This document shows positions 346 through 34,409 of a stretch of 34,409 nt of DNA, one piece after another. A model generated the notes under the pieces. The model saw nothing but the letters and a program-made list of their open reading frames with translations, was not told the origin of the DNA and did not search any database. Origin of the DNA: Ignavibacteria bacterium (lineage in GTDB: Bacteria > Bacteroidota > Ignavibacteria > UBA10030 > SZUA-254). The position numbers and the translations under genes were made by a program. Position 1 is the stretch's first letter; every line of letters begins with the position of its first letter. The stretch is taken from positions 1 to 34,409 of the forward strand of contig JACOSY010000041.1 of assembly GCA_016178595.1 (NCBI GenBank), given 5' to 3'.

Positions 346-495
346 ATGATTGGTTCAACAATATCACATATTGAACTCACCCTGTGGTCCCTCTCTAAAA
401 TTAGAGAGGGACGGAATGGTCTCGCAAGCGCCTCCCCTTCTCTAAGTTTAGAGAAGGGGAATGAGGGGATGAGTTCAAACAGAGGGACAGTATGA
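346..495 (+). other. Kinase-start remnant forming a possible leader peptide
   Basis: The 24 nt at 346-369 read MIGSTISH, almost the N-terminus of the kinases (MIGQTISH). They then run into the palindromic repeat at 373-476. The frame stays open for 49 codons and ends in a TGA (493-495) that overlaps the ATG of the first kinase (492), in an ATGA arrangement. In nucleotides the remnant differs from the start of the second kinase at 3 of 24 positions but from the adjacent first kinase at 8. It may be a translated, coupling leader or simply debris of a duplication. There is no strong ribosome binding site in front of it. Confidence 0.4.
373..476. repeat. Palindromic (REP/MITE-like) element upstream of kinase 1
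   Basis: The outer ends are inverted: GAACTCA at 373-379 and TGAGTTC at 470-476. Inside are two near-perfect palindromes. The first has 12-bp arms at 387-398 and 401-412; the second has 12-bp arms at 434-445 and 448-459, each around a 2-nt centre. The left part (CTCACCCT, 4 nt, TCCCTCTC) matches the element at 4788-4852. Both elements sit directly after the eighth codon of a kinase start remnant, in the same orientation. Confidence 0.7.
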
Positions 496-2621
496 TCGGT
501 CAGACTATCTCTCACTATAAGATTTTAGAGAAGCTCGGCGAAGGCGGCATGGGCGTTGTATACAAAGCCCAGGATATAAAACTTGATCGTTCCGTCGCGA
601 TCAAGTTTCTTCCATCGCATCTCTCGACGTCGGAGGAGAACAAAGCACGATTTATGCAAGAAGCGAAAGCCGTGGCTGCGCTCAACCATCCTAATATTCT
701 CGGCGTGTACGAGATCGATGAGGAGGACGGAAGTTTGTTTTTCGTGATGGAATACGTCGAGGGCAAGACGCTGAAATCGCACATTGCGAATTTAAAGTCC
801 AGCACTGGTGTTCCTTTCAGCCAGGCGCTTGAGTGGACATCCCAGATCGCCCGGGGATTGGAAGCTGCTCATGAAAAGAACATTATCCACCGCGACATAA
901 AGTCCGAGAACATCATGCTGACCAACAACGGTCAAGTCAAGGTCATGGACTTCGGTATTGCGAAGCTGAAAAGCGGTACCGGACTTACCAAGACGGGTAC
1001 GTCGCTAGGAACACTATCGTACATGTCGCCCGAACAGGCGCAAGGGTCTGCAGCCGATCATCGTGCAGACATCTGGTCGCTTGGCATCGTCCTGTACGAA
1101 ATGCTCACCGGTGAGGTGCCGTTCAAGGCAGAACACGATGCGGGATTGTTGTATTTGATCGTGAATGAAGAACCGCCGCTGCCGAGTGAGATGGACAAAA
1201 AAATACCTCGCCAAGTCGATCCGGTCGTGAAGAGAATGCTGGAGAAAGATCGCACACGGCGATACGAGACAATGGGCAAGGTGCTGCAATCCCTGGCAGA
1301 TGTTCGAGCGGCGATTGAGACTACGACAGTCACGGCGAAAACGAAAGCAATCGCAGTATTGCCGTTTGGTAATATCAGTCCTGACAAAGAGAGCGATTAC
1401 TTCAGCGACGGCCTGACGGAAGAGTTGATCGCAAACCTAGCGAGACTCAAAGACATCCGCGTAGTTCCGCGTGCGACGTCGATGCAATACAAAGGTTCAA
1501 CGAAAGATATCAAGACTATTTCGAGAGAACTTGAGACACGCTATATCCTCTCGGGCAGTGTAAGAAAATTTCAGGATAATTTGCGTATCACTGTGGAGTT
1601 GATCGATGTCGATAACGACGCGCAACTCTGGGCAGAAACGTACAAGGGGAAGCTCGCCGATGTGTTCGACATCCAGGAGCAGGTTTCGAAGCAAATAGTC
1701 GATGCGCTCATGGTGAAACTGACGCCGACCGAAAAGGTCGTCCTGACGAAGCGATCCACCGTGAACGCGGAAGCATTCGATTGCAACCTTCGCGCACGAG
1801 ACTTCCTCTATCGTCGCACGAAAAGCGGAGTTCAATTTGCCATTCAACTCTTTCAACGTGCCATCGATCTTGACGCGCGTTACGCGGCAGCGTATGCCGG
1901 GCTTGGAGAAGCGTACGCAACGATGCACTACGATTACGATACAAAAGAGCATTGGATTGAGAGAGCGATTGAGTCGGGTCTCAAGGCTCTGATGTACGAT
2001 CCGACACTCTCCGAAGCGTACGCCGCACTCGCCCTTGCGTATATGAGTAAAAAGTCGCTCGATGAAGCTTCAGCGGCAGGGCATAAAGCCATCGATCTTG
2101 ATCCGAACAATTTCGCCGGCTACTGGATTCTTGGCCGCATCTATCATCTTTTTGATAGGGACCGCGAGGCGGTGGAAATGCACAAGAAAGCTATTGCCCT
2201 CAACCCGAATTTTCACACGGCGTATGGTGACCTTCGCGTAGTCTATGAACGACTCGGCGAAAAGGAAAAACATGATGAAATCCTGCAGACGCTTCTTCAG
2301 GTTTATCCGCGGTACCTCTCCCAGCATCCCGATGATGCACGTTCTCATATCTACTTTGCTATTGATCTGACACACGTAGGTAGAAACGAAGAAGCGAGGC
2401 GAGAAGCTGCCAAAGCACTCGAATTGAGTCCTGGTGACTCGCTCATGATGTACAATGCCGCATGTTTCTATGCTCGCGTGGGAGATAAGCGTCTTGCTGT
2501 CGATTCGCTGAAAAATTCCATTGCCGCAGGTCTTGAAGATTATGAATGGATTAAACGCGATCCCGATTTTGACAACATCCGCAACGAACCGGAATATATT
2601 GAGATGATGAAAGGAAAGTAA
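492..2621 (+). CDS. Ser/Thr protein kinase with TolB-like (COG5616-type) and TPR domains, copy 1
   Basis: This is a predicted soluble Hanks-type kinase that would phosphorylate Ser/Thr on unknown partners. The kinase domain (about residues 8-270) has the glycine loop GEGGMG (16-21), VAIK lysine K38, alpha-C E57, the catalytic loop HRD (133-135), DFG (153-155) and an SPE in place of APE (179-181). In the catalytic loop it reads HRDIKSEN, where the other three copies have HRDIKPEN. Residues about 286-413 resemble the TolB-like N-terminal domain found with adenylate cyclases and TPR proteins (AVLPFGNISPDKESDYFSDG). TPR-like helices follow, with a C-terminal end-of-group segment ending NEPEYIEMMKGK. 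I see no transmembrane segment or PASTA domain. Only 4 nt separate it from the next copy, and the AGGA in its last codons can serve as that gene's ribosome binding site. The substrate is unknown. Confidence 0.93.
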   Translation: MIGQTISHYKILEKLGEGGMGVVYKAQDIKLDRSVAIKFLPSHLSTSEENKARFMQEAKAVAALNHPNILGVYEIDEEDGSLFFVMEYVEGKTLKSHIANLKSSTGVPFSQALEWTSQIARGLEAAHEKNIIHRDIKSENIMLTNNGQVKVMDFGIAKLKSGTGLTKTGTSLGTLSYMSPEQAQGSAADHRADIWSLGIVLYEMLTGEVPFKAEHDAGLLYLIVNEEPPLPSEMDKKIPRQVDPVVKRMLEKDRTRRYETMGKVLQSLADVRAAIETTTVTAKTKAIAVLPFGNISPDKESDYFSDGLTEELIANLARLKDIRVVPRATSMQYKGSTKDIKTISRELETRYILSGSVRKFQDNLRITVELIDVDNDAQLWAETYKGKLADVFDIQEQVSKQIVDALMVKLTPTEKVVLTKRSTVNAEAFDCNLRARDFLYRRTKSGVQFAIQLFQRAIDLDARYAAAYAGLGEAYATMHYDYDTKEHWIERAIESGLKALMYDPTLSEAYAALALAYMSKKSLDEASAAGHKAIDLDPNNFAGYWILGRIYHLFDRDREAVEMHKKAIALNPNFHTAYGDLRVVYERLGEKEKHDEILQTLLQVYPRYLSQHPDDARSHIYFAIDLTHVGRNEEARREAAKALELSPGDSLMMYNAACFYARVGDKRLAVDSLKNSIAAGLEDYEWIKRDPDFDNIRNEPEYIEMMKGK

Positions 2622-2625
2622 TACA

Positions 2626-4755
2626 ATGATTGGCCAAACAATATCACATTATAAGATTCTCGAAAAACTTGGCGAGGGCGGCATGGGTGTGGTGTACAAA
2701 GCCAAGGACATCAAGCTCGATCGTCCAGTTGCGATCAAATTTCTCCCGTCGCATCTGTCGGCTTCCGAAGAGAACAAAGCGCGTTTCATGCAGGAAGCAC
2801 GGGCGACTGCCGCACTCAATCACCCGAATATTCTTAACGTCTACGAGATTGATGAGCAGAACGGGGGAATGTTTTTCGTCATGGAATACCTTGAAGGACG
2901 AACGTTGCGGTCCCATATTTCGAGTCTAAAATCGAGCACAGGAATTCCTTACACTCAGGCTATTGAATGGACAACGCAGATCGCCAACGGACTCCAGGCG
3001 GCGCACCAGAAGAACATTGTTCACAGGGATATAAAGCCCGAGAATATCATGGTTACCAACAATGGACAGTTGAAAATCATGGATTTCGGAATAGCCAAAC
3101 TCAAGAGCGGTTCCGGCTTGACGAAAACGGGAACATCGCTCGGCACGCTCTCCTATATGTCTCCTGAACAAGCTCAGGGAATGCCTGCCGACCATCGTTC
3201 GGATATCTGGGCACTGGGTGTTGTCCTCTATGAAATGCTCACGACGGATTTGCCCTTCAAAGCAGAACACGAAGCGGCACTCCTCTATCTCATCGTGAAC
3301 GACGATCCACCGCTGACGAGTTCAATGGACAAGAAGATTCCTCGCCATGTCGATCCCCTCGTGATGAAGATGCTGGCAAAAGTGCCGGAGCACCGATTTG
3401 CGAACATGAGTGAGGTTGTGCAAGCGCTCTCAACTGTCAAGAGTGAAATTGAAGCCACTGGTGGAACGACAAAGACGAAAGGCATCACCGTCTTGCCCTT
3501 CGGCAATATGAGTCCGGATAAGGATAGCGATTACTTCTGCGATGGACTGACGGAAGAACTGATCGTGAACCTCTCGAAACTCAAGGACATACGTGTTGTG
3601 CCGCGTTCGAAAGCGATGCAATATAAAGGGACTACGAAAGAGGTCAAGGTGATCGGCAGAGAGCTTGGGACCCGCTACGTGCTTTCCGGGAACGTGAGAA
3701 AATTTCAAGACAATCTCCGTATCAGTGTCGAGCTGATAGATATCGAAATCGACGAACAACTCTGGGCGGAGACGTATAAGGGAAAACTCGAGGACGTCTT
3801 CGATATTCAAGAGCAGGTATCAAAACAAATCGTCGATGCGTTGATGGTGAAATTGTCGCCATCGGAAAGGGTTGTGTTGACGAAACGCTCTACCCTGAAC
3901 GCGGATGCCTTCGATTGTAATCTCCGCGCAAGAGATTCCCTCTACCGGTTCACGAAGAATGGCGTGCAAACTGCAATCGAGCTTTTCCGTAAAGCCATCG
4001 AGTACGATGGGCGATATGCAGACGCGTATGCGGGCTTGAGCGAAGCGTACGCTCACCTCTACCAACAGTTCGAAAGAAAGGATGCGTGGCTCGAGAAAGC
4101 TTTGGAGTCGGGATTGAAAGCATTGATGTACGATCCGTCGTTGTCGGAAGCATACTCCGCTCTTGGTCTCGTCTACCTCTACAAGAAATCCCACGACGAA
4201 GCTGTGGAGTCCAGTCAGAAGGCAATAGAGCTAAACCCGGGCAATCATGTTGCATACTGGATTCTTGGCCGAACCTACGTTACCATGGATCGGAATAAGG
4301 AAGCCATTGAGCTTTTTAAGAAAGCGATTGATCTCAGTCCCGAATTCTATGCGGCATATAGTGATCTCATCCTCTCATTAGATCGTCAGGAGGAAAAAGA
4401 AAAGGCCATGCAGGCACTTCATGCCGCCGTTCAGATGTTCCCCCGCTACCTCTCACTTCATCCTGACGACGCACGTGCTCACATGCATTTTGCAATTACC
4501 TTGGTGCGATCTGGTCGGGCCGACGAGGCGAAAGCCAAAGCCGTCAGAGCCATTGAGTTAAGTCCAAACGACCCGCTGATGTTCTACAATGCCGCGTGTT
4601 TCTATGCGAACGTCGGTGACAAATCCCTTGCGCTCCAATCTCTGAAGAATGCTGTTTTTGCTGGCTACGAGTTTTACGAATGGATCAAGCGCGACCCCGA
4701 CCTCGACAGCATCCGCAATGAACCGGACTATATAGGATTGATGAAAGGAAAGTAA
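2626..4755 (+). CDS. Ser/Thr protein kinase with TolB-like and TPR domains, copy 2
   Basis: This paralogue has the same 709-residue length and architecture as copy 1, and the inspected motifs fall at the same residue numbers. It keeps G-loop 16-21, K38, E57, HRDIKPEN (133-140), DFG (153-155) and SPE (179-181), so it should be catalytically competent. The TolB-like segment (about 286-413) starts TVLPFGNMSPDKDSDYFC, with Cys where the other copies have Ser. The TPR half and the C-terminal segment (ending NEPDYIGLMKGK) follow. Its start lies 4 nt after the stop of copy 1, and the preceding AAAGGAAAG of that gene's last codons provides the ribosome binding site, so the two are probably one transcript. 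What it senses through the C-terminal half is not evident. Confidence 0.93.
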   Translation: MIGQTISHYKILEKLGEGGMGVVYKAKDIKLDRPVAIKFLPSHLSASEENKARFMQEARATAALNHPNILNVYEIDEQNGGMFFVMEYLEGRTLRSHISSLKSSTGIPYTQAIEWTTQIANGLQAAHQKNIVHRDIKPENIMVTNNGQLKIMDFGIAKLKSGSGLTKTGTSLGTLSYMSPEQAQGMPADHRSDIWALGVVLYEMLTTDLPFKAEHEAALLYLIVNDDPPLTSSMDKKIPRHVDPLVMKMLAKVPEHRFANMSEVVQALSTVKSEIEATGGTTKTKGITVLPFGNMSPDKDSDYFCDGLTEELIVNLSKLKDIRVVPRSKAMQYKGTTKEVKVIGRELGTRYVLSGNVRKFQDNLRISVELIDIEIDEQLWAETYKGKLEDVFDIQEQVSKQIVDALMVKLSPSERVVLTKRSTLNADAFDCNLRARDSLYRFTKNGVQTAIELFRKAIEYDGRYADAYAGLSEAYAHLYQQFERKDAWLEKALESGLKALMYDPSLSEAYSALGLVYLYKKSHDEAVESSQKAIELNPGNHVAYWILGRTYVTMDRNKEAIELFKKAIDLSPEFYAAYSDLILSLDRQEEKEKAMQALHAAVQMFPRYLSLHPDDARAHMHFAITLVRSGRADEAKAKAVRAIELSPNDPLMFYNAACFYANVGDKSLALQSLKNAVFAGYEFYEWIKRDPDLDSIRNEPDYIGLMKGK

Positions 4756-4761
4756 CCAGGT

Positions 4762-4872
4762 ATGATCGGTCAAACAATTTCACACACACCCTCACCCTAT
4801 AATCCCTCTCCCAAATTGGGAGAGGGATGTCACGAAGTGACAGGGAGAGGGTCAACAAGGGCAAGGTTATGA
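4762..4872 (+). other. Second kinase-start remnant forming a possible leader peptide
   Basis: Six nt after the stop of copy 2, an ATG at 4762 begins MIGQTISH, the exact kinase N-terminus, then runs into the repeat at 4788-4852. The frame is open for 36 codons and ends at TGA 4870-4872, overlapping the ATG of copy 3 (4869) as ATGA. An AGGAAAG in the end of copy 2 gives it a good ribosome binding site. The 24-nt remnant differs from the start of copy 4 at 1 position, but from adjacent copy 3 at 8. Translation coupling to copy 3 is possible but inferred. Confidence 0.45.
4788..4852. repeat. Palindromic (REP/MITE-like) element upstream of kinase 3
   Basis: A perfect palindrome with 13-bp arms (4802-4814 and 4816-4828) sits inside imperfect inverted ends (ACCCTCACCCT on the left, GGGAGAGGGT on the right). 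A second small hairpin, TGTCAC-GAA-GTGACA, spans 4828-4842. The CCCTCTCCCAAAT core also occurs at 25196-25221, so this is a dispersed family. It separates the kinase-start remnant at 4762 from the real start of copy 3. Confidence 0.75.
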
Positions 4873-6998
4873 TTGGGCAGGTGATCTCACATTACCAGAT
4901 TCTAGAAAAACTCGGCGAGGGCGGCATGGGTGTCGTCTACAAAGCCCAGGACACGAAACTTGATCGTCCTGTTGCGATCAAATTCCTTCCGGCGCATCTT
5001 TCGGCATCTGAAGAGAACAAAGCACGATTTATTCAAGAAGCACAGGCAACGGCCGCTCTTAATCATCCTAATATTCTCAATGTGTACGAGATTGACGAGC
5101 AGGATGGGGGGATATTCTTTGTGATGGAATACATTGAGGGAAAGACACTGAAATCTCACATCACAAGTTTGAAAGCCAGCGAAGGAATCCCCGTTCGCCA
5201 GGCAATCGACTGGACGATCCAAATTGCGCAGGGTCTCAAGGCGGCGCATGAGAAGAACATTGTCCACCGTGATATTAAGCCGGAGAATATCATGCTCACG
5301 AAAGATGGCCATCCGAAGATCATGGACTTTGGAATTGCCAAACTCAAGAGCGGGACAGGCCTGACCAAAACAGGGACGTCGCTGGGAACCCTGGCGTACA
5401 TGTCGGCTGAGCAGGCACAAGGATTGTCGGCGGACCATCGCTCCGATATTTGGTCACTCGGTATCGTGTTCTACGAAATGCTTACAAGTGAATTGCCGTT
5501 TAGAGGCGAGCACGAAGCAGCGCTGATGTACTTGATTGTGAACGAGCAGCCCCACGCACCGAGTCAGATCGACCGCAGGGTTCCACCGCAAATAGATGCT
5601 GTCGTTCTGAAAATGATCGATAAAGATCGATCGTCGAGATATCAGAACGTGGGAGAATTATTAAAGGCGCTTCGGGACGTGCGATCAGAGATCGAAACGG
5701 CGGCTCATGGAGGGAAAACGAAAACAATTGCCGTTCTCCCATTTGCCAACATGAGCGCCGACCCGGAGAATGAGTATTTCAGTGATGGGCTGACGGAAGA
5801 GATCATCGCAAGTCTCTCACGACTCAAAGACATGAAAGTCATCGCTCGAACGACATCAATGCAGTATAAGGGAACAAAGAAGGACATCAAGACGATTGGC
5901 AGGGAACTTGGAGCGCGTTACATCATGGAAGGGAGCGTGAGAAAATACCAGGACAACCTCCGCATCACAGCACAGTTCATTGATGTTGAGGATGGCACAC
6001 AGCTTTGGGCGGAGACGTATAAGGGCACACTTGCCGACGTGTTTGAGTTCCAGGAGCAGGTATCAAAACAGATCGTTGATGCGCTGATGGTGAAGTTGAC
6101 CCCAGTCGAAAAGGTTGTACTGACGAAACGCACGACGTTGAACGCAGAAGCATTCGACTGTTATCTCCGTGCCAGAAATTTCCTGTACCACCGGTCAAAA
6201 AAAAACATGCACCTCGCCATGCAGCTTTTCGAGAAGGCTCTTGAGCTTGATCCTCGTTACGCCGATGCCGCTGCCGGACTGGGGGAGGCATGTGCAACGC
6301 TCTATCAATTGTTTGAAAAAAATGACGCCTGGCTCGACAAGTCGATCGAGTCATGCTTGAGAGCTCTCATGTACGATTCAACATCATCTTCAGCCTATGC
6401 TGCCCTTGGGTTGGCATACTTTCAGAGGGATTCGTACGATCAAGCATTGGCAGCGAGCCAAAAGGCGATTGAACTTGATCCGAATAACTTTACTGCCTAC
6501 TGGATTCTTGGGCGGATTTATCACACGACTGATCGTGATAGAGAAGCGATTGAGCCGTTAACGAAAGTCCTCGCACTGAATCCTGAATTTTATTCAGCAT
6601 ACGGCGATCTCGAGACGGTATACGGGCGATTAGGAGAAAAAGAAAACCATGATCGCATCTTGTACGCTGCGATAGGAGCGTACGATAAGTACCTCTCAAA
6701 ACATCCTGAGGATGCACGGGCTCACATGTTCTATGCATGTGACCTGGCGAATGTGGGGAGAAAAGATGAAGCAAAGGTAAGGGCAGCAAAAGCGCTCGAA
6801 CTGAGTTCGGATGACCCCCTCATGCTGTATAATGCTACCTGCTTCTATTCCCAAATGGGAGATAAGAACCTGGCGATAGAAGCTCTCAAGAACGCATTTG
6901 CAGCCGGCTTTGTGGACTACGAATGGCTTAAACGTGACACTGATCTCGATCCTATCCGCAATGAACCTGGGTATAGCGAATTGATGAAAGGAAAGTGA
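4869..6998 (+). CDS. Ser/Thr protein kinase with TolB-like and TPR domains, copy 3
   Basis: The frame extends up to 4827, but the true start is the ATG at 4869. It gives the family N-terminus (MIGQVISHYQ) and exactly 709 residues like the other copies, and it has an AAGGG 7 nt upstream; the upstream 14 codons are repeat sequence. Kinase motifs are intact: G-loop 16-21, K38, HRDIKPEN 133-140, DFG 153-155. The APE-like triplet reads SAE (A180 for P180), a small departure in the substrate-binding P+1 region. The TolB-like segment begins AVLPFANMSADPENEYFS (about 288) and TPRs follow to NEPGYSELMKGK. Two stretches are identical in DNA to copy 4 (4887-4951 and 5316-5374), which suggests recent gene conversion. 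Confidence 0.93.
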   Translation: MIGQVISHYQILEKLGEGGMGVVYKAQDTKLDRPVAIKFLPAHLSASEENKARFIQEAQATAALNHPNILNVYEIDEQDGGIFFVMEYIEGKTLKSHITSLKASEGIPVRQAIDWTIQIAQGLKAAHEKNIVHRDIKPENIMLTKDGHPKIMDFGIAKLKSGTGLTKTGTSLGTLAYMSAEQAQGLSADHRSDIWSLGIVFYEMLTSELPFRGEHEAALMYLIVNEQPHAPSQIDRRVPPQIDAVVLKMIDKDRSSRYQNVGELLKALRDVRSEIETAAHGGKTKTIAVLPFANMSADPENEYFSDGLTEEIIASLSRLKDMKVIARTTSMQYKGTKKDIKTIGRELGARYIMEGSVRKYQDNLRITAQFIDVEDGTQLWAETYKGTLADVFEFQEQVSKQIVDALMVKLTPVEKVVLTKRTTLNAEAFDCYLRARNFLYHRSKKNMHLAMQLFEKALELDPRYADAAAGLGEACATLYQLFEKNDAWLDKSIESCLRALMYDSTSSSAYAALGLAYFQRDSYDQALAASQKAIELDPNNFTAYWILGRIYHTTDRDREAIEPLTKVLALNPEFYSAYGDLETVYGRLGEKENHDRILYAAIGAYDKYLSKHPEDARAHMFYACDLANVGRKDEAKVRAAKALELSSDDPLMLYNATCFYSQMGDKNLAIEALKNAFAAGFVDYEWLKRDTDLDPIRNEPGYSELMKGK

Positions 6999-7095
6999 GA
7001 AAGAATTGATTCATTGGCTCATTGAATCAATGAAACAATGAACAAAAGAGTCAAGGGATAAACCGTACTATTGAATAAATGAAAGATCTCTTATC
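6999..7095. other. Spacer between kinases 3 and 4 with an AT-rich hairpin
   Basis: The 97-nt spacer holds a perfect 9-bp inverted repeat, ATTGATTCA (7005-7013) and TGAATCAAT (7023-7031), around a 9-nt loop. No T-run follows, so it is not a classic terminator; it may reduce read-through or be processed. The ribosome binding site before copy 4 is weak (AAAGATC). Confidence 0.4.
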
Positions 7096-9225
7096 ATGAT
7101 CGGTCAAACAATTTCACATTACCAGATTCTAGAAAAACTCGGCGAGGGCGGCATGGGTGTCGTCTACAAAGCCCAGGATCTCAAGCTTGATCGAATGGTT
7201 GCAATAAAATTTCTCCCTTCTCATCTCTCTGCCTCGGCGGAGAATAAAGCGCGCTTTCTGCAGGAGGCGAAAGCCGCTGCGGCGCTGAACCATCCTCACA
7301 TCCTCGGCGTGTATGAGATCGATGAAGAAAATGGCACGCTGTTCTTCGCGATGGAGTATGTTGAAGGGACGACGCTAAAGTACTACATCGCAAACCTAAA
7401 GTCGGGAACGGGCATACCGATCAATCAAGCGATTGAATGGACGTCCCAGATTGCACAGGGACTGAAGGCGGCACACGAGAAGAACATCGTCCATCGGGAC
7501 ATCAAACCGGAGAACGTCATGCTTGCCAACGATGGGAAGCTCAAGATCATGGACTTTGGAATTGCCAAACTCAAGAGCGGGACAGGCCTGACCAAAACAG
7601 GAACCTCGCTGGGTACATTATCGTACATGTCACCTGAGCAAGCGCAAGGAGTTGCAGCCGATCACCGTTCCGATATTTGGTCGCTCGGAATTGTGCTCTA
7701 CGAGATGTTAACGGCTGACCTGCCGTTCAAGGCAGAACATGAAGCAGGACTATTATATCTGATTGTGAACGAAGAGCCACCGGTGCCAAGCCTGATGGAT
7801 AGAAAAATCCCTCATCAAATGGATGGTGTGATCAAGAAGATGCTTGCGAAGGACCGTGCGCTGAGATTTCAAAACGTTGATGAGCTGTTACACTCTCTAC
7901 AAGAAACTCGGAGCGCAATTGAAAACACGCCGGCTCAAGTACAGGCAAAAGCCATCGCGGTACTTCCATTTGGGAATATCAGTCCGGACAAAGAAAGCGA
8001 TTATTTCAGCGACGGGCTTACCGAGGAGCTCATCATCAACTTATCGAGGTTGAAAGATATTCGCGTTGTCCCTCGCACCACGTCGATGCAGTACAAGGGG
8101 ACGAACAAAGAGGTCAAAGCGATCGGCAGAGAACTTGGCACGCGCTATATCCTCGCGGGGAGCGTGAGAAAATTTCAGGATAATCTTCGCATTGCTGTTG
8201 AGTTGGTCGATGTGGATGCCGATGCTCAACTGTGGGCGGAGACGTACAAAGGGAAACTTGCGGATGTTTTTGATATTCAGGAACAAGTCTCAAAACAAAT
8301 CGTCGATGCGTTGATGGTAAAGCTGACGCCGATCGAGAAAGCGGTTCTTTCGAAACGTTCCACGCTTAACCCCGAAGCGTTTGACTATTACCTGCGTGCA
8401 CGGGGATTTCTCTATCGATTTTCCAAGAACAATATGAACATATCGATTCAACTCTTCCAAAAAGCTATTGAGCTGGATCAACGATATGCAGCCGCATATG
8501 CCGGATTGGGTGAAGCATATGCCTATCTGTATCAGTATTTAGATCGTAGAGAATCGTGGCTTGACAAAGCGATCGAGGCATGCCTCAAAGCCCAGATCTA
8601 CGATCCGAGTCTTTCTGAGGCGTACGCTGCGTTAGCGGTTGCATACTTTAACAAGAAATCATTCGACGAGGCGATCGTAGCGGGGAAAAAAGCCATCGAG
8701 CTCGATACCAATAACCATGCTGCATACTGGATACTGGGGAGAATCTATCATAACATGGATCGAGATAAAGAGGCAATCGATCTCTTCAAGACATCAATAG
8801 CTCTGAATTCCGATTTCTATATTGCCTACTCCGATTTAACATTGGCGTATGAACGGGTGGGCGACAAAGAAAAACAGATGGAAATTCTCCGGAAGACTCT
8901 TCAAATGTACCCGCGCATTCTCTTGCAGTATCCCGACGATGCACGAGCGCATATGTTCTATGCTATCAGTCTGGTTCAGGTCGGAAGAAAGGAAGAGGCA
9001 AAGATAGAGGCAAAAAAATCACTCGACCTCAGCCCCGCTGACACCGTTTCACTGTACAACGCGGCATGTTTCTATTCACAGATGGATGAAAAACGGCTTG
9101 CTCTTGATACCCTGAGAAATGCCATACTTGCCGGGTGGGTCGACTTCGAGTGGATTAAACGCGACACCGATCTTGACAACATCCGCAATGAACCCGAGTA
9201 TATTGAAATGGTGAGGGGAAAATAA
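7096..9225 (+). CDS. Ser/Thr protein kinase with TolB-like and TPR domains, copy 4
   Basis: This is the last of the four 709-residue paralogues. Motifs match the others: G-loop GEGGMG 16-21, K38, HRDIKPEN 133-140, DFG 153-155, SPE 179-181, so it should be an active kinase. The TolB-like segment (about 286-413) begins AVLPFGNISPDKESDYFS, and TPR-like repeats run to a C-terminal segment ending NEPEYIEMVRGK. It is cytoplasmic as far as can be seen. The first 24 nt nearly match the remnant at 4762-4785, and two tracts (7114-7178 and 7543-7601) are identical to copy 3. It ends the array; a strong hairpin at 9278-9325 lies just downstream. Confidence 0.93.
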   Translation: MIGQTISHYQILEKLGEGGMGVVYKAQDLKLDRMVAIKFLPSHLSASAENKARFLQEAKAAAALNHPHILGVYEIDEENGTLFFAMEYVEGTTLKYYIANLKSGTGIPINQAIEWTSQIAQGLKAAHEKNIVHRDIKPENVMLANDGKLKIMDFGIAKLKSGTGLTKTGTSLGTLSYMSPEQAQGVAADHRSDIWSLGIVLYEMLTADLPFKAEHEAGLLYLIVNEEPPVPSLMDRKIPHQMDGVIKKMLAKDRALRFQNVDELLHSLQETRSAIENTPAQVQAKAIAVLPFGNISPDKESDYFSDGLTEELIINLSRLKDIRVVPRTTSMQYKGTNKEVKAIGRELGTRYILAGSVRKFQDNLRIAVELVDVDADAQLWAETYKGKLADVFDIQEQVSKQIVDALMVKLTPIEKAVLSKRSTLNPEAFDYYLRARGFLYRFSKNNMNISIQLFQKAIELDQRYAAAYAGLGEAYAYLYQYLDRRESWLDKAIEACLKAQIYDPSLSEAYAALAVAYFNKKSFDEAIVAGKKAIELDTNNHAAYWILGRIYHNMDRDKEAIDLFKTSIALNSDFYIAYSDLTLAYERVGDKEKQMEILRKTLQMYPRILLQYPDDARAHMFYAISLVQVGRKEEAKIEAKKSLDLSPADTVSLYNAACFYSQMDEKRLALDTLRNAILAGWVDFEWIKRDTDLDNIRNEPEYIEMVRGK

Positions 9226-33613: not shown

Positions 33614-34159
33614 ATGTCGCATTGGAAAATCATTAAAGAAAAGGAAACCGAGCTCTACTTTCTTACTGCCACAATTGTCGAGTGGACTCCGATCTTTCTT
33701 TCACATAAGTATTTTGGGGTAATCATAGAAAGTCTCAAACACTGTCAGGATAAGAAAGAATTGCGCATTGCCGGCTTCGTTATTATGCCGAACCATCTTC
33801 ATATGATAGCGGCAGGAAGTACATCGCATCCTCTATCGGAAACACTAAGGGACTTTAAACACTATACGGCGGTCCAGATAATCAAAACTCTCCAAGAAGC
33901 GAATCAAACAAGAATGCTGAATATATTTCAACAAGCAGCAGCAATGGATGAGCGCAGCAATATTCACAAACTATGGAATGAGGGCAATCATCCAATTCTC
34001 GTTGAAGATGAATATATGTTTCGCGAAAAGCTCAACTACCTCCACGATAATCCCGTACGCAAAGGATTTGTAGAACAACCGGAGCATTGGTTATATTCCA
34101 GTGCGCGGAATTATATTCTCGATGACCATTCGGTATTGAAGATAGAATGTTTAGTATAA
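33614..34159 (+). CDS. REP-associated tyrosine transposase (RAYT, IS200/Y1-like)
   Basis: A 181-residue single-strand transposase of the Y1/HUH class. The metal-binding HUH pair is H61-L-H63 in IMPNHLHMI, and Y84 in DFKHYTAVQI is the likely nucleophile. The C-terminus (LNYLHDNPVRKGFVEQPEHW, about 138-157) is the usual RAYT ending. Such proteins nick and rejoin DNA at small hairpin repeats (REPs), are normally single-copy, and lack the paired ends of an IS. Here the gene is bracketed by the candidate repeats at 33536-33597 and 34165-34409. The start has no strong ribosome binding site. All key residues are intact, so it may be active. Confidence 0.92.
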   Translation: MSHWKIIKEKETELYFLTATIVEWTPIFLSHKYFGVIIESLKHCQDKKELRIAGFVIMPNHLHMIAAGSTSHPLSETLRDFKHYTAVQIIKTLQEANQTRMLNIFQQAAAMDERSNIHKLWNEGNHPILVEDEYMFREKLNYLHDNPVRKGFVEQPEHWLYSSARNYILDDHSVLKIECLV

Positions 34160-34164
34160 TCAGT

Positions 34165-34409
34165 ACTAGGAGGGAGTTCCACTCCCGACTTTATCGTGAG
34201 TGAAGGAATGCCACGCCTGACCACACAACAAGGTCGGGAGTTCAACTCCCTCCCAGCAGGAGAACGGATCATGACTACACAACTAGGAGGGAGTTCCACT
34301 CCCGACTTTATCGTGAGTGAAGGAATGCCACGCCTGACCACACAACAAGGTCGGGAGTTCAACTCCCTCCCAGCAGGAGAACGGATCATGACTACACAAC
34401 TAGGAGGGA
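34165..34409. repeat. Tandem 117-bp REP repeat units
   Basis: Two identical 117-bp units (34165-34281, 34282-34398) and the start of a third reach the window edge. Each unit has a direct hairpin copy (CTAGGAGGGAGTTCCACTCC) and, about 60 nt on, an inverted copy (GTCGGGAGTTCAACTCCC), joined by linkers. This gives a head-to-head pair, the layout of REP doublets. Because 117 is divisible by 3, a false open frame of 39-codon repeats appears on the minus strand. Confidence 0.85.

Follow-up and report, generated by a model that had tools for sequence, protein, structure and literature searches.

The window, meaning the whole stretch of 34,409 nt that was analysed, is contig C35 of a 61-contig, 3.1 Mb draft genome of an Ignavibacteria bacterium, and all of the genomes compared with it are likewise drafts. 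It carries four kinase genes in tandem, each of 709 aa when counted from its MIGQ start (Table 1), and a kinase search gives its closest named matches in MAGs assigned to Ignavibacteriales, Ignavibacteriae and Bacteroidota. Kinases 1 and 3 are each preceded by a short leader ORF that begins with a copy of a kinase 5' end, referred to here as a remnant, and continues through a palindromic repeat. The second in-frame ATG of kinase 3 lies inside its repeat, and translation of this kinase may therefore also begin there, from an N-terminally extended start. The ATGA-rich repeat type found before kinase 4 also occurs before two other kinases (L094 7057-7151, and L096, reverse strand, before 5136); it makes up a row of very short ORFs, and the final ORF of the row (14-17 nt) shares bases with the kinase ATG. 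At 33614-34389 the window has a gene for an IS200-like transposase (Y1_Tnp) and, behind it, tandem repeats whose translation gives SGVELPPS-type peptides, a pairing that resembles a REP-associated transposase with its repeats.

Table 1. Coordinates of the kinase genes, leaders and repeats of the window.
Feature	Position	Strand	Description
Remnant 1	346..369	+	Copy of kinase 5' end, codons 1-8, MIGSTISH; start-pattern match 346-368
Leader ORF 1	346..495	+	49 aa, MIGSTISH-IELTLWSLSK...; open across repeat; TGA 493-495 overlaps kinase 1 ATG (492)
Palindromic repeat A	371..478	+	Inverted ends TTGAACTCACCC ... GGGATGAGTTCAA; further copies in genome
Spacer	479..491	+	Shine-Dalgarno-like AGAGGGA 5' of kinase 1 ATG; like spacer at C11:14397
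Kinase 1	492..2621	+	Pkinase + TPR domains, 709 aa
Kinase 2	2626..4755	+	Begins 4 nt past kinase 1 stop; no leader
Remnant 3	4762..4785	+	Copy of kinase 5' end, codons 1-8, MIGQTISH
Leader ORF 3	4762..4872	+	36 aa, MIGQTISH-TPSPYNPSPK...; open across repeat; TGA 4870-4872 overlaps kinase 3 ATG (4869)
Palindromic repeat B	4788..4857	+	ACCCTCACCC ... GGGAGAGGGT; 70-nt identical copy 5' of C11:22190
Kinase 3	4869..6998	+	Other in-frame ATG at 4827, within repeat B
Gap 5' of kinase 4	6999..7095	+	Different repeat type, ATGA-rich; no kinase remnant
Kinase 4	7096..9225	+	ORF

An earlier note on this DNA had described two such fusions of remnant and repeat, each open and each closing in an overlap of TGA and ATG, and both are exact in the sequence. 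The note had also placed the two repeats in one family, which is not the case, as A and B give separate lists of genome matches and represent separate sequence families that share a similar layout and CCCTCTC-type arms but nothing more. The predicted RNA fold of repeat A has an energy of -61.2 kcal/mol (z -6.5) and that of leader 3 an energy of -45.4 kcal/mol (z -4.8). A search for known RNA elements gave no Rfam match within the window, which rules out that identity for the leaders. Similarly, the predicted accessibility of the kinase start is the same with and without a leader, with no extra fold over the start, and masking of the start by a hairpin can therefore be dismissed.

The two cases are also not the only ones. 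A search of the genome with the kinase-start pattern found copies before other kinases as well, and inspection of the regions upstream of all 17 kinase matches gave the order of remnant, insert and kinase at about ten places, with several types of insert; eight of these pairs are additional to those of the window (five on C11 and one each on C19, C20 and C42). The distances from remnant to next start in this genome are 146, 146, 107, 107, 101, 95, 95, 89, 158 and 138, all of which except the last equal 2 modulo 3. The survey was extended to the regions 5' of 137 kinases in 14 other genomes of the family together with the named-MAG loci from the kinase search, and with pairs chosen by scoring codons 1-8, and two dropped by eye, it yielded 42 non-redundant remnant-to-next-start pairs among 209 kinase starts. 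Remnants occur in chains of up to three (L236), and the repeat type, the length (38 to 341 nt) and the peptide of the leader are different at nearly every locus. For instance, the best match to kinase 3 among the compared loci (L310 at 5110, 77% identity) is preceded by a GTG-start remnant and a repeat unlike that of kinase 3, and the ORF again ends in ATGA. No strain pair differing by one kinase insert was present among the genomes compared. At L094 9488-9690 (C11:21988-22190) two remnants stand in succession before a kinase start, with the outer one closed at codon 4, and the kinase downstream is a pseudogene whose frame is broken after about 21 codons. Expansion of the kinase family is very uneven, from 2 to 45 matches per genome; the genome with the most, G012, has no DUF559 gene and, in the regions read, one short remnant only.

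Why should the frame that begins in a remnant so regularly lead to the start of a kinase? The frame test read each pair in the frame set by the remnant itself, with the other two frames as the control, and counted it as coupled when the first stop fell between -25 and +15 nt of the next start. With this interval, which was set post hoc and with which narrower intervals agree, the own frame is coupled in 35 of the 42 pairs, against 14.7 ± 2.9 expected under a random frame. The stop falls within -20 to +12 of the next start in 32 pairs and exactly at an ATGA overlap in 24, both cases in the window included, and pairs with a phase other than 2 still often stop at -3, -4, -12, -13 or -21. It could be argued that the frame fits through chance and shared descent, with few independent insertions having been copied often. 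Copies of one repeat type are indeed related, the coarsest clustering giving 6 groups, and this reduces the number of independent events and counts against the reading that we prefer below. When kinship was controlled by clustering the repeats into 15, 10 or 6 groups, with one random frame per cluster, p was nevertheless <2e-5, 0.00024 and 0.008, respectively, for the -25 to +15 interval, and 2e-5, 0.0026 and 0.025 for the exact ATGA overlap. Moreover, lengths vary inside repeat types and yet the stop stays close to the next start, and chance with shared descent is on this evidence a very improbable explanation.

The bias is also specific. Among 74 gaps of at least 40 nt with a start codon close to the stop on their upstream side, 14 of the 21 in which the first start is kinase-like are coupled (7.0 expected), whereas the remaining 53 have no excess (13 coupled, 11.0 expected). 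A property of all intergenic ORFs is thereby ruled out, since the excess is limited to those with a kinase-like start, and it follows that an ORF is kept open where it continues a former kinase start, and not elsewhere. Selection would be the probable cause. Several gaps in the kinase arrays measure just 3-6 nt; 47 of 106 kinases without a remnant lie within -25 to +15 of an upstream stop (17 by a 4-nt overlap), as do 15 of 31 of the remnants themselves, and the Shine-Dalgarno match is better at the new start than at the remnant start (p 0.005).

Taken together, the open own frames of 35 of the 42 pairs and the lack of bias in gaps without a kinase-like start support, at the level of sequence, the proposal of the earlier note that the leaders couple kinase translation, such that ribosomes would translate the leader and reinitiate at the kinase; in most pairs the stop overlaps the next start or is no more than about 20 nt away, the spacing by which coupled gene pairs are recognised. 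The regulatory half of that proposal fares less well. Leader peptides that had evolved as controls throttling the kinases, for example by attenuation, would account for the frame bias and for the strong predicted hairpins of both leaders. Set against this are the changing repeat type, length and peptide, the lack of an Rfam match in the window and the predicted accessibility of the kinase start, which is no lower than in leaderless kinases; nor does the predicted folding give any sign that a leader is needed to open the start. A role as regulators is accordingly improbable, and an origin as insertion scars fits better.

This origin can be approached through the remnants themselves. The long remnants differ from the true start mainly at synonymous positions, the synonymous and nonsynonymous codon differences being 12/0 (L264), 10/0 (L242), 8/0 (L266) and 11/2 (L248), and over codons 2-8 of all pairs pooled there are 130 synonymous and 75 nonsynonymous differences. 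This preponderance suggests that remnant and true start each evolved within a working kinase before the two were joined. Paralogues that share a repeat are close to identical (~1.0) over at least the first 10 codons and highly similar in the 40 nt upstream, after which identity falls to 0.6-0.75, and such paralogues carry unlike remnants (L236; the genome's own A and D). Judged from these alignments, the unit that is exchanged is the repeat together with the ribosome site and the first 10-20 codons, and the leaders have the look of insertion scars. A transposition of the ordinary kind, whose long target-site duplication happened to take in the gene start, would also leave gene-end copies on either side of a repeat, but we give it the least credence of all: the differences between the copies are largely synonymous, unlike those of a neutrally decaying duplicate, a pattern that rules out plain target-site duplication; the duplication does not reach past the ATG into upstream sequence, and its length ranges from about 12 to 80 nt.

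A survey beyond the kinases covered 400 kb of stretches, some of which were picked for a known repeat, so that its rate is not unbiased, and several of the gene names it yielded reflect resemblance by eye only. Copies of A and B elsewhere are flanked by direct repeats in excess of a cross-locus null; these flanks are diverged gene-end copies, and not the short identical target-site duplication that marks a MITE or insertion sequence. In the window's genome two 5' remnants precede clpB, and after the second come repeats, a DUF559 gene, further repeats and the true start. The clpB of G005 has its own 5' remnant, and none was found in the stretches read at ten other clpB genes of the family, two of them with <500 nt upstream (L315 is not among the ten). 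Further cases from the survey are a 5' remnant at a methylase-like gene and, at 3' ends, cases in a VIT-like, a GNAT-like and two further genes. In the 3'-end versions, located at L356 8669 (C51), L358 9428 and 17675 (C3) and L357 6050 (C58), the last codons of the gene are copied downstream of an A- or B-type repeat; the 3' copy of the VIT-like gene has few differences, largely synonymous. The four 5' remnants outside the kinases (two at the clpB of the window's genome, that of G005 clpB and that of the methylase) are all uncoupled, and coupling is thus no general feature of scars. Random frames elsewhere, which the earlier note had named as evidence against its proposal, are therefore found at these four, whose frames are closed, but not at the kinases.

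A link to DUF559 endonucleases comes from the contents of some inserts. At L128 a 126-aa ORF with a DUF559 match (E 2e-31) lies between a 27-codon kinase remnant and the new kinase start, which its TGA overlaps as ATGA. DUF559 is present in 9 of 15 family genomes, and the context of 26 loci was examined by coordinates. DUF559 genes lie between gene-end copies with mostly synonymous differences at clpB, at the L128 kinase, at L375 (G007:C27), where the gene ends in PVRVEETGVIKPMK, and at L380 (G007:C34), where the gene resembles a seryl-tRNA synthetase, as which we take its C-terminus; in the latter two the nuclease gene is at the 3' end and the second gene-end copy lies beyond the insert. Kinases, clpB, L375 and L380 thus have the same plan, with two diverged gene-end copies flanking an insert and the gene whole on one side. 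Palindromes of the A or B type flank further DUF559 genes (L362, L363, L366 and L367), and many loci have, at the sensitivity used, neither these nor gene-end copies. The nuclease gene is absent from most kinase inserts, including the two in the window, and a DUF559 gene at every insert is therefore ruled out. The literature searched, which left subscription journals largely aside, contained nothing relevant on DUF559 with palindromic repeats or homing.

These loci also bear on the possibility that the leaders are deletion scars, formed where a repeat separated tandem kinases and the upstream one was lost apart from its start, which then stood before the repeat and the downstream kinase, with the in-frame leader kept for coupling. 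Tandem kinase arrays exist, and the synonymous divergence of remnant and start is explained equally well. The shared blocks, however, stop after the first 10-20 codons and do not span the downstream kinase, DUF559 genes lie between the copies, and the same arrangement is seen at clpB and the seryl-tRNA-synthetase-like gene, neither of which is likely to have stood in tandem copies. Deletion is the strongest of the alternatives and still an unlikely one.

We regard it as probable, with real room for doubt, that the leaders are insertion scars of homing-like elements that replace gene ends and are kept because ribosomes are handed on. The arrangement, frame bias, synonymous divergence, shared blocks, other gene ends and nuclease genes in some inserts are seen directly; the mobility of the element, and homing driven by the nuclease as the cause of insertion, are what we infer from them. 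In the proposed sequence of events a palindromic-repeat element, some copies of which carry a DUF559 endonuclease gene, would enter a kinase gene just past its start, at a point from about codon 5 to codon 27. From a homologous kinase the element would provide substitutes for the ribosome site, the start codon and the first codons, such that the kinase is whole again downstream, while the old start would be left upstream as a remnant that still draws ribosomes. Copies would persist mainly where the frame of the remnant crosses the repeat without a stop and ends at or next to the new start, allowing ribosomes to terminate at the leader stop and then reinitiate at the kinase. The palindromic repeats would on this scheme be the ends of DUF559 elements, with nuclease-less copies forming the kinase leaders. 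Whether bacterial chromosomes in general host homing-like elements of this kind, built from DUF559 and palindromic ends, inserting into the opening or closing codons of protein genes and providing a substitute gene end, with nuclease-less copies turning the displaced start into a coupled leader ORF, is a proposition to which we would give even chances.

If correct, the insertion-scar reading would show how a needed gene can take up a repeat in its coding end and not be destroyed, and would indicate a role for DUF559, which is still of unknown function in Pfam. The approximately 40 leaders of unrelated sequence represent a natural series for studying the passage of ribosomes between ORFs, and there is a warning for annotation in that short ORFs or alternative starts annotated ahead of genes of this kind could be scars.

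Several known systems share features with these loci. In termination-reinitiation coupling ATGA overlaps and very short distances predominate (PMC6728339, PMC10666635), and reinitiation requires an overlap or a very short distance, with about 20 nt nearly abolishing coupling (PMC10666635). The leaders have the same overlaps and very short spacing, and differ in that a short ORF derived from an insertion takes the place of an established gene as the upstream partner. Rickettsia palindromic elements and MITEs are short repeats with inverted ends and many copies, some of which are read as coding sequence. The repeats described here are likewise short, multi-copy and bounded by inverted ends, with some in ORFs, but a homologous gene end is supplied in place of a short target duplication and the candidate driver is a DUF559 nuclease and not a transposase. 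The closest analogue would appear to be the mobile ORFs with a carboxy-terminal duplication of fungal mitochondria, known from Allomyces atp6 and from Glomus atp6, atp9, cox2 and nad3, where the native gene end is displaced and the inserted end restores the gene (PMC3630166); no report of a bacterial version of such a gene-end-replacing ORF was found in the literature searched. As in the fungi, at some of the loci described here an endonuclease ORF lies between two gene-end copies, and the copies differ mostly at synonymous sites. The nuclease is of the LAGLIDADG or GIY-YIG type in the fungi and DUF559 here, where the setting is a bacterial chromosome with palindromic repeats and with 5' as well as 3' ends affected, and where most copies lack a nuclease and the displaced starts would have become coupled leader ORFs.
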